Assembly (NCBI GenBank): GCA_027622595.1
Contig: JAQBZZ010000011.1
Coordinates: 1 to 43,088 of the forward strand
DNA: 43,088 nucleotides
Direction of reading: 5' to 3'
Source: Chloroflexota bacterium
GTDB taxonomy: Bacteria > Chloroflexota > Dehalococcoidia > Lucifugimonadales > UBA2985
The translations under genes and the position numbers were made by a program. The notes beneath the pieces were generated by a model. That model made no database searches and was not told the DNA's origin. It was given only the letters and a program-made list of their open reading frames with translations. Shown here piece after piece: positions 14,810-18,760 of the stretch. Every line of letters begins with the position of its first letter. Within the stretch, counting starts at the first letter, position 1.

Positions 14810-15892
14810 ATGGATAATATCGAGTCTCTGTTGGAGGAACTGACAAACGCCGACGGCCCTTCAGGGTTTGAAGGCCCCGTCAGGTCCATAATGCAACGAG
14901 AGTTCTCTCCCCTTTGCAGCCACATGGAAACGGATGGCATGGGTTCGCTCATGGCAAGGCTGGGCGAGGACGACGGCCCTCCTCGAATAATGATGGCGGC
15001 CCACATGGACGAGGTTGGCCTTATGGTCAAATTCGTCACCGCCGAAGGCTATGTCAGGTTCCAACCCCTCGGCGGGTGGTTGGACCAGGCCCTGATCAAT
15101 CAGCGTTGGGTCATTCTGACCAGGAATGGGCCTGTACAAGGCGTATCTGGCATCAAAACCCCCCACGTCATGACCACCGAGGCCCGCAACCAGGTCTTCA
15201 AACGGGACCAGATGTTCATAGATGTGGGTGCCGACAGCCTTGAGGATGCTGAGGAACGTTTGGGCATTCGTCCAGGAGACCCCATTACGCCCGATAGCAG
15301 GTTCACCATCCTCAGTGGAGGCTCGCTCTACATGGCCAAGGCCTGGGACGACCGCATTGGCCTTGCGGTCATGGTGGAGGTCATGCGCCGCCTCAAGAAC
15401 CTTCCCCCACCAAATACCCTCTATGCGGTGTCCACAACGCAAGAGGAAGTGGGCCTTCGAGGTGCCCATACGAGCAGCTATCGAGTGGAGCCCGACATCG
15501 GAATTAACCTTGAGGCAGGCGTGGCAGGGGACTATCCTGGCATCTCACAGGAGGAGTCCCAGGAACGTGTTGGGAAAGGCCCCGCCATCTTCCTCCACGA
15601 TACCTCCATGATGCCAAATCTGAAGCTGCGGGACCTCTTTATAGATGTGGCCAAGGAGAAAGAAATACCTATCCAGTTCGATGTTCTGAACGGCTACGGC
15701 GAGGATGGCGCCGAGATTCAGCGGTCCCGGGGTGGTGCCCCAACCATCAACATAGCTGTTCCCACCCGCTATCTGCACAGCCATTACGGGGTTATCAGCC
15801 GCCAGGACTTCGATCACACACTGGAGTTGATAGTCGCGGTGATCCAGCGTCTGGATGCCGCGACAGTCCATGACCTGAAGAGCTTCGACTAG
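14810..15892 (+). CDS. M42 family metallopeptidase (aminopeptidase/endoglucanase family)
   Basis: ADGPSGFEGPVR, MMAAHMDEVGLMVKFV, AWDDRIGLAVMVEVM, VSTTQEEVGLRGA, HSHYGVISRQD. Confidence 0.92.
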   Translation: MDNIESLLEELTNADGPSGFEGPVRSIMQREFSPLCSHMETDGMGSLMARLGEDDGPPRIMMAAHMDEVGLMVKFVTAEGYVRFQPLGGWLDQALINQRWVILTRNGPVQGVSGIKTPHVMTTEARNQVFKRDQMFIDVGADSLEDAEERLGIRPGDPITPDSRFTILSGGSLYMAKAWDDRIGLAVMVEVMRRLKNLPPPNTLYAVSTTQEEVGLRGAHTSSYRVEPDIGINLEAGVAGDYPGISQEESQERVGKGPAIFLHDTSMMPNLKLRDLFIDVAKEKEIPIQFDVLNGYGEDGAEIQRSRGGAPTINIAVPTRYLHSHYGVISRQDFDHTLELIVAVIQRLDAATVHDLKSFD

Positions 15893-15916
15893 CAGACGTT
15901 GTTCATGGGAGGAGAG

Positions 15917-17551
15917 ATGCAGAAGCTAAACATCGGAGTTGGCGTGTTGAGTGGAGTGCTCCTTACGGCTCCTCTGCTGGGCATAATGTACCTGGCAAAC
16001 GAGTGGACTGGACTGCCGTTCGCCCCGTTTGACCTGTTTGACTGGATCACCCGTGTGCTGCCAGGCCCGCTGATTACCTTCGGCATTGACTTCATGATAG
16101 ATGCGTTGCGGCTGATGGGATTGAGCGTGGCCGGCACGGCGAAGACAGCCGAGCACATCTCGGCTGTCCTGAACTTCTTTGCCGCGGGAGCGGTGGTTGG
16201 AACACTATTCTTCGTGTTCTTCAGATTTCGTGCAGTGTGGCCGGACCTGACATCTGGGCTGGTGGTGGGCGCCCTGGTTGGACTCCCAATGACAGCCATA
16301 AGTATTGCGATCACCCAATCAACCGTCCAGCCTCTCCTGATCGTGTTGTGGCAGATGGGGCTGTTCCTGGTGTGGGGTGTAATGTTGAGGGAGGCATACA
16401 TCCGCACGAACCCTGGTTATGGGCTTCTATCGGCAGATGAGGGGCAACCGGACACGGTCCACATGATCGACCGGCGAAGCTTTCTAATTCGCCTCGGCGC
16501 TGCCAGTGCCACCATCACTGTTGCCAGCAGCTCCCTTGGCAACCTGCTGTCCCGGGCAGCACGCCGTGAGATTGAGGACGAACGGGATGCCTCCATGACA
16601 CACCAGACCGAGCAGAGCATCGGGCCGTCCTTTCCAAATTCCGACGATCCCGTGATGCCGGCTCCCGGGACGCGACCCGAGTACACCCCTTTGAAAGACC
16701 ACTACAAGGTGTTTATCAGAACAAGCACCACGACCATTGACGGGGCAACATGGTCGCTGCCCATTTTCGGCCTTGTTGAGAATCCCCAAATACTCAGCCT
16801 GGAGAATATCCGCAACAACTATGAGCCACGCGACCAGTACGTGACGCTATCGTGCATCTCCGGTCGGATAGGAACATCCCTGATTAGCACCACCAAATGG
16901 ACTGGCGTGAGCCTGCAAGATATCCTTGCCGATATCAAGCCAACAAATAAGGCACGCTATCTGGATATGACATGCGGCGACGGGTTCCACGAGACGGTTG
17001 CCCTTGACCTGATCGCATCAGACCAGCGTATCATGCTCTGCTATGACTGGGACGGCAATCCACTTCCCATTGACCACGGGTTTCCGCTGCGGATATGGAT
17101 TCCCGATCTTTACGGGATGAAACAGCCCAAATGGATAACCGAAATAGAAGTCGTGGAGGACCTCAATGAAGGTTACTGGGTCAAGCGCGGCTGGGACCCG
17201 GTGGCCAGGGTCACAGCGACTTCTGTCATAGATACCGTGGCCGTGAATGCCGTCTACGAGAACAACGGCCAGCAGTTGGTCCCGATTGGAGGCATCGCGT
17301 TCGCAGGAGCACGGGGGATTTCCAAGGTTGAAGTCCGCACAGATGATGGCGCCTGGCAGGAGGCCAACTTGAGAGCGCCGCTGTCAGAAACAACCTGGGT
17401 CCTGTGGCGGTACGACTGGCCCTTCACGGCCGGCAATCACGTAGTAGAGGTACGATGCACCGAAGGTGACGGCACTCCTCAGATTGAGGAGTCGCGCGGC
17501 AACCATCCCAGCGGCGCAACGGGCATCCACGGCAAAGAGGCGCGGCTCTAG
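15917..17551 (+). CDS. sulfite-oxidase/MsrP-like molybdopterin oxidoreductase with N-terminal membrane domain
   Basis: N-terminal TM segments, then HMIDRRSFLIRLGAASATITVASSSL (Tat-like) and molybdopterin domain YVTLSCISGRIGTSLISTTKWTGVSLQDIL..GDGFHETVAL..HGFPLRIWIPDLYGMKQPKWITEIEV; C-terminal dimerisation-like region. Confidence 0.85.
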   Translation: MQKLNIGVGVLSGVLLTAPLLGIMYLANEWTGLPFAPFDLFDWITRVLPGPLITFGIDFMIDALRLMGLSVAGTAKTAEHISAVLNFFAAGAVVGTLFFVFFRFRAVWPDLTSGLVVGALVGLPMTAISIAITQSTVQPLLIVLWQMGLFLVWGVMLREAYIRTNPGYGLLSADEGQPDTVHMIDRRSFLIRLGAASATITVASSSLGNLLSRAARREIEDERDASMTHQTEQSIGPSFPNSDDPVMPAPGTRPEYTPLKDHYKVFIRTSTTTIDGATWSLPIFGLVENPQILSLENIRNNYEPRDQYVTLSCISGRIGTSLISTTKWTGVSLQDILADIKPTNKARYLDMTCGDGFHETVALDLIASDQRIMLCYDWDGNPLPIDHGFPLRIWIPDLYGMKQPKWITEIEVVEDLNEGYWVKRGWDPVARVTATSVIDTVAVNAVYENNGQQLVPIGGIAFAGARGISKVEVRTDDGAWQEANLRAPLSETTWVLWRYDWPFTAGNHVVEVRCTEGDGTPQIEESRGNHPSGATGIHGKEARL

Positions 17552-17927: not shown

Positions 17928-18569
17928 TCAGCCCTCGCCAGCGACCTCTTCATTCCGTACAGTTTCGGCCACCTTTTTGAAAAGCTCATAGGGTTGAGCG
18001 CCTGAGAAGAAGTACTTGCCGATGATGAAGGATGGTATGCCGTTGACCCCTATTGAGAGAGCTTCATCGTACTGTTCCTGGGCCTGGGCGGTGTAGTGGC
18101 CGGTGTCCAGGATTTCCTTCATCTCATGAGCGTTGAGACCCACCTGCTCCCCCAGTTGCTGGAGCACTGAGAGCTGCCCCAAATCGGCTCCATCCTCCCA
18201 GAAAGCCTTGTAGCACACCCTGTGGAATTGCTCGAAGAGGCCCTTGTCCTTCGCAAACTCAGAGGCCTCGAAGGCCATACGTGTGTTGGGCGTGAGCGGG
18301 GCACGCCGCATGGTGAGTCCTGCCTCATCTGCGACATCGCCGATATGACCTGTGAGGGGTGCGCCCACCTTTTCGCCCTCTCTGAGCGGCCTCACATTGC
18401 CCTCAGGAGGTATGTCGGGTCTGAGATAGAAGCTCTTATAGCTAGTTTCGAGGGGATATTCCTGCGCTAGCTGGTCCAACCTGGCCAGTCCTATGTAGCA
18501 CCAGGGTCAAATGTAGTCGTACCAGACGGTGACTGGAATGATGTTGCTATTGTGTTTGGGTGTTGTCAT
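17928..18569 (-). CDS. FrnE/DsbA-family oxidoreductase, probable selenoprotein (in-frame UGA at 18507-18509 as Sec in UPWC)
   Basis: Reading through UGA gives MTTPKHNSNIIPVTVWYDYI[U]PWCYIGLARLDQLAQEYPLETSYKSFYLRPDIPPEG...; ATG at 18569 has a GGAGG SD. The ORF track starts only after the UGA, at 18479. Confidence 0.8.
18471..18488 (-). promoter_or_regulatory. candidate bacterial SECIS hairpin
   Basis: RNA CUGGCC-AGGUU-GG(A)CCAG begins 18 nt after the UGA; apical loop contains GGU, as in the E. coli fdhF SECIS loop. Confidence 0.55.
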
Positions 18570-18760
18570 GGATTTCCTCCTTGTTCTCCTTCGCTTTGGA
18601 AGCAAGGGCCAGTCCTTGTATCCTCCCTGGATTCAATAGACCTACCTATTGTAGTTGAAGTGCGCCGTCCCCGCCAAGCACCCAGGAGACATTACCATGC
18701 AGGACAATGTTGTACAATCGGCATATGCATGCCTTCGCTGATAAGAACGACAATGAGTTC

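Follow-up and report, generated by a model that had tools for sequence, protein, structure and literature searches.

The minus-strand gene at 17928..18569 of the window (the whole 43,088-nucleotide stretch of Chloroflexota DNA that was analysed) very probably encodes a selenocysteine (Sec)-containing member of the FrnE branch of the DsbA family, in which SelB and an RNA hairpin would direct Sec to position 21 of a UPWC active site and which is most likely a cytoplasmic oxidoreductase. The computations show a Sec/Cys column conserved among relatives, the Sec machinery in the genome, a selected hairpin after the UGA and the FrnE fold. The initial annotation had claimed that the gene encodes Sec, with UGA replacing the first Cys of a CPWC motif, and the column, the machinery and the hairpin strongly support this claim; of the refuting conditions named there, those that were checked did not hold.

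Re-reading of the DNA gave the same layout as had been proposed (an ATG, a GGAGG Shine–Dalgarno sequence and a single TGA at 18507-18509): on the minus strand the gene runs from the ATG at 18567-18569 to the stop at 17928-17930, with one in-frame TGA between them. The spacing from the start to the U codon is 20 codons in the window gene and also in the relatives L022-L025. The standard ORF, 17928..18479, begins at TTG 18479 and lacks the active-site motif, which bears out the view that standard ORF calling truncates the gene and removes its active site. Among the 127 one-TGA read-through frames listed mechanically in the window, a UPWC-type site occurs only in the frame 18569..17928. The features are as follows.

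17928..18569, minus strand: predicted FrnE/DsbA-like selenoprotein gene, 213 residues, with one internal UGA and TGA as its own stop
18576..18582, minus strand: AAGGAGG as ribosome-binding site, 6 nt upstream of the ATG, read in the sequence
18507..18509, minus strand: UGA codon for the predicted Sec21, position 1 of U-P-W-C; 136 of the 185 relatives read have TGA here
18498..18500, minus strand: codon of Cys24, the resolving cysteine of UPWC, invariant in alignment A1
18471..18488, minus strand: hairpin of SECIS type, CUGGCC-AGGUU-GG(A)CCAG, spanning nt 22-39 when the U of the UGA is nt 1, marked by a six-codon identity in the clade
18478..18482, minus strand: apical loop AGGUU, in which an A-U pair encloses GGU, 24 nt downstream of the UGA, from folding
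18033..18035, minus strand: codon of Pro179 in G-I-P, expected to be the cis-proline opposite the active site, invariant in alignment A1

A profile search of 250 genomes of the order gave a match in 141 of them, and most of the strong matches carried exactly one TGA. In the 110 order loci that were read, the residue-21 column is TGA in 97, TGC or TGT in 12 and TCT in 1; with 75 further loci from the class added, the 185 relatives, which are not mutually independent, have TGA in 136, TGC or TGT in 48 and TCT (Ser) in 1. The Cys/Sec pairing that the initial annotation had suggested looking for is thus present at this column, and the TGA of the relatives stands at one fixed place rather than as random stops elsewhere in the gene. 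On a gene tree built with the column masked we counted 19 changes between Sec and Cys, at least 12 of which are forced by well-supported (starred) branches; the figure of 19 is approximate, the tree having been made by a fast method (FastTree) and containing some long branches.

The search of 251 genomes of the phylum gave many one-TGA matches outside the class, as search-table entries only, and the named genomes scanned gave one locus only. Three genomes, G372, G422 and G360, were rejected as carriers of Sec forms: their TGA lies near the C-terminus and their active site has Cys. Because such entries mislead, those listed with one TGA were counted as Sec only after the locus had been read.

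The family also contains departures from the common pattern. One locus (L121, G218:C27:31580-32167) has the motif UPHS, with Sec and no resolving Cys, and its nearest-scoring relatives are mostly CPHC or CPHS. A second Sec paralog (UPWC, UPFC, UPYC or UPHC) stands beside the main one at L104, L107, L111, L125-L128 and L131, mostly in one family (f36), and two genomes, G206 and G207, apparently have two Sec forms and one Cys form each.

The genome that carries the window (1.67 Mb, 91% complete) contains selB (E 4e-116), selA (E 1e-167), selD (E 2.5e-113) and a tRNA-Sec of 75.8 bits with the anticodon UCA (ARAGORN), so that all four genes for which a search had been suggested are present. The SelD of this genome (L009, G000:C85:9836-10750) itself contains Sec in a known form (MQDEQIRLTSLARCAGU...), and its CAGU site gives the genome a second, classical selenoprotein. 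A set of 60 class loci was chosen by the presence or absence of TGA, blind to selA; selA turned up in 22 of the 27 Sec genomes and in 12 of the 33 Cys genomes (Fisher p 6e-4). The five Sec genomes in which selA was not found are MAGs of 77-90% completeness, and the 12 Cys-form loci in selA genomes indicate that having the machinery does not compel a genome to use Sec here.

Synonymous constraint in the 97 order sequences peaks just after the UGA, at codons +5 (z 8.6), +7 (z 11.2) and +10 (z 6.9); from codon +13 onward none is left. RNAalifold applied to all 97 sequences gave no structure, owing to the mixture of several registers, and explicit registers were therefore counted instead: a stem of 7 pairs at nt 17-35, with three registers allowed, was compared with synonymous shuffles. 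The full 7-pair stem is present in 103 of 136 Sec sequences (76%), against a shuffle mean of 11% and a maximum of 18%, and in 1 of 48 Cys sequences. Most members have the loop at nt 23-25 and use one of the three alternative pairing registers. Pair 21-31 covaries (C-G 55, G-C 18, U-A 4) through the wobble base of Gly and the first bases of Leu, Val and Ile, and folding is better than in synonymous shuffles in Sec forms and not in Cys forms (Mann-Whitney p 2e-17). Judged by these comparisons of sequences, selection maintains the hairpin after the UGA in Sec forms only. At one further locus (L185, G447:C1:1382287-1383880), two neighbouring stem pairs have changed together (GGCAAGGGACUUGUCGA), a compensatory case.

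The hairpin that the initial annotation drew in the window stands at 18471-18488 as drawn, starting 18 nt after the UGA and folding at -7.7 to -8.8 kcal/mol. Taken alone it is not significant: the folding energy of the single sequence has a synonymous-shuffle p of about 0.10, and all six pairs also form in 7% of shuffles. Once relatives are compared it is well above chance, and the synonymous constraint and covariation found in them add to the original claim. The published bacterial SECIS model has a loop of 3-9 nt, a stem of 4-16 bp, a distance of 16-37 nt from the UGA, an MFE of -7.5 or below, a G in the first two loop positions and the pattern N1-G-[G|U]-N-N2 (PMC13188914). The window element, for which a check against such a model had been proposed, fits these limits of loop, stem, first G, spacing and energy, with a loop of GGU or AGGUU, 6-7 bp and one bulge, a distance of 24 nt and the folding energies given above; its apical loop AGGUU also agrees with the N1-G-[G|U]-N-N2 pattern.

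In the clade of the window gene (L021-L024), only 5 of the 7 pairs can be made in the family registers, and the hairpin at nt 22-39 is formed instead. The same codon is used by all four members at 22 of 102 shared residues (22%) over the gene, and the sole run of more than two identical codons comprises six codons, +7 to +12, which are exactly nt 22-39. The outgroups L025 and L152 have register B at UCGGCCUGGCCAGGCUCGA, which makes a shift inside the window's clade the simplest reading. We consider it somewhat probable that the SECIS shifts its position within the coding sequence while the protein remains unchanged: in this clade the palindromic CUGGCCAGG would have been re-paired a few nucleotides downstream, the old 5' arm and loop becoming the new 5' arm and the old 3' arm becoming the loop at nt 28-32. 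If true, this lineage, in which Sec and Cys have been exchanged many times, would offer a natural experiment on how much displacement of the SECIS SelB tolerates. The fdhF SECIS of E. coli likewise has an in-frame UGA followed by a hairpin with a G-rich apical loop and a bulged base; the position of the loop and the side of the bulge differ from those in the window, and we claim no sequence similarity between the two.

Residues 13-199 of the read-through protein match Pfam DSBA (PF01323; E 1.1e-31) and include the active-site UxxC; besides Sec21, the only cysteines of the protein are Cys24 and Cys119. In a profile search against PDB sequences FrnE was the best match (E 1.4e-42). The AlphaFold model (pLDDT 95.5, pTM 0.90) has as its nearest solved folds FrnE of Deinococcus radiodurans (5coh/5co3/5cp1, TM about 0.8) and SCO1869 of S. 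coelicolor, which are also the nearest by sequence, so that the FrnE-type assignment of the initial annotation is confirmed both by sequence and by fold. All 33 sequences of alignment A1 share D18, P22, C24, G174 and P179 and have U or C at residue 21, and residues 18-30 are among the most conserved stretches; the U/C-P-W-C motif is kept nearly throughout the relatives. In the predicted model the first strand starts at residue 11, and by eye the sequence shows no obvious leader, which would suit a cytoplasmic site.

None of the 18,950 NCBIfam models matches the window protein above its cut-off, and among the 33 relatives NF041057 and TIGR00411 are the sole models that match at all; the family is thus covered by no NCBIfam model. 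NF041057, the Rcas_1661 family thioredoxin-like (seleno)lipoprotein ('DsbG-like', UxxC), is likewise a thioredoxin-fold selenoprotein family, but it is a different one, its match to the window protein being weak (35.9 bits against a cut-off of 190) and limited to residues 97-202 in the C-terminal half.

D. radiodurans FrnE (DR_0659; PDB 5cnw, 5co3, 5coh, 5cp1, 5xwh) has been described as a disulfide reductase of the cytoplasm that shows stress phenotypes; a C-terminal CX4C motif aids its regeneration (PMC8945050). It shares the fold and 28% identity with the window protein; its CPWC aligns with UPWC, Sec replacing the attacking Cys, and a cytoplasmic location is presumed for both. The window protein has no CX4C, so recycling must differ. 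The motif is found in many FrnE proteins and is missing in those of D. maricopensis and S. roseofulvus (PMC8945050); it is therefore optional in the subfamily, and its absence here bears on no defining feature. By analogy with the Deinococcus protein, the most likely role of the window protein is that of a thiol-disulfide oxidoreductase in the cytoplasm, with Sec as the nucleophile.

Several other explanations of the UGA were weighed. To standard annotation the gene would look like a shortened ORF lacking an active site, as expected of a pseudogene or of a TGA produced by a sequencing or assembly error; since 136 relatives, drawn from many genomes, have their TGA in this very column, 48 have Cys there and the protein is conserved on both sides of the codon, neither a read error nor a random stop fits, and we regard this explanation as refuted, its probability being negligible. 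It is equally hard to credit that the UGA is read as another amino acid, such as Trp, through an altered genetic code or a suppressor tRNA: the reading frame does continue past the UGA, but the column pairs with Cys and not with Trp, the gene's own stop is TGA, tRNA-Sec(UCA) and SelA/B/D are in the genome, and the SelB-type hairpin is selected only in UGA forms. That the UGA is a genuine regulated stop, the functional product being the shorter protein from the TTG, is very improbable. The mechanically called ORF for such a product does exist; however, it would lack strand 1 and the entire active site, including the highly conserved residues 18-30, its TTG overlaps the hairpin loop, and an ATG with a Shine–Dalgarno sequence lies upstream at a kept distance.

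A further explanation accepts the selenoprotein and concerns its function: it could be an isomerase or glutathione transferase of the HCCA isomerase/kappa-GST branch instead of a disulfide oxidoreductase. Structures of that branch have the same fold and profile E values of 1e-17 to 1e-6, but the FrnE match is far better and the U/C-P-W-C motif persists almost throughout, and we consider this assignment unlikely.

In the selenoprotein reading with FrnE-type function, SelA and SelD would charge tRNA-Sec(UCA), and SelB would bind the hairpin just 3' of the UGA and bring Sec to position 21; translation would then run on to give the 213-residue protein with its U-P-W-C active site. By family chemistry, the Sec21 selenolate would attack the substrate disulfide and Cys24 would resolve the mixed selenenyl-sulfide. 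The redox activity itself is suggested by homology to D. radiodurans FrnE.

As for earlier descriptions of such proteins, COG2761, one of the labels under which they were reported, is the FrnE COG. The window gene shares with the published DsbA-like selenoproteins the Pfam DSBA domain, the UxxC motif, Cys homologs and a downstream bacterial SECIS, and by its Pfam/COG labels it would belong to the same subfamily as the published form 1 (type sequences AACY01178397 and NIP15863.1). These proteins were reported from the Sargasso Sea in 2005 as 'DsbA-like' selenoproteins (COG2761, UxxC, 9 sequences; PMC1088965), from GOS in 2008 as 'DsbA 1' (pfam01323, UxxC, 63 sequences; PMC2398784), in 2016 as 45 sequences in 41 bacteria, among the top 20 bacterial families (PMC5029168), and in reviews of 2022 and 2026 as 'DsbA-like protein form 1' (PF01323, NIP15863.1; PMC9312934, PMC13188914). 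With the DsbA-like UxxC family (PF01323/COG2761) established since 2005, the window gene is a further member of a known family, and the novelty implied by the initial annotation is correspondingly lower.

Neither PMC5029168 nor PMC13188914 mentions Chloroflexi/Chloroflexota or Dehalococcoidia in its main text, and as far as titles, abstracts and term counts tell, neither a FrnE selenoprotein nor a Dehalococcoidia/SAR202 selenoprotein of this family has been reported in the group. Apparently new are how widely the family occurs in Chloroflexota, how often Sec and Cys have been exchanged, and the displacement of the hairpin. Chloroflexota commonly carry Sec-FrnE, and the finding corrects a gene that automatic annotation probably truncates. 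Together, the repeated exchanges and the shifting hairpin provide dense comparative data on why Sec is kept and what SelB needs in the RNA.

A scan of the flanking genes in 40 neighbours (alignment A2) revealed no conserved operon. The sole recurring neighbour is a HAD-family hydrolase, which adjoins the gene in 8 of the 40. In the window, the convergent neighbour at 15899..17551 on the plus strand is an oxidoreductase that has a molybdopterin-binding domain (PF00174) and is hydrophobic in its N-terminal part, and beyond it, at 14810..15892, lies an M42 aminopeptidase.
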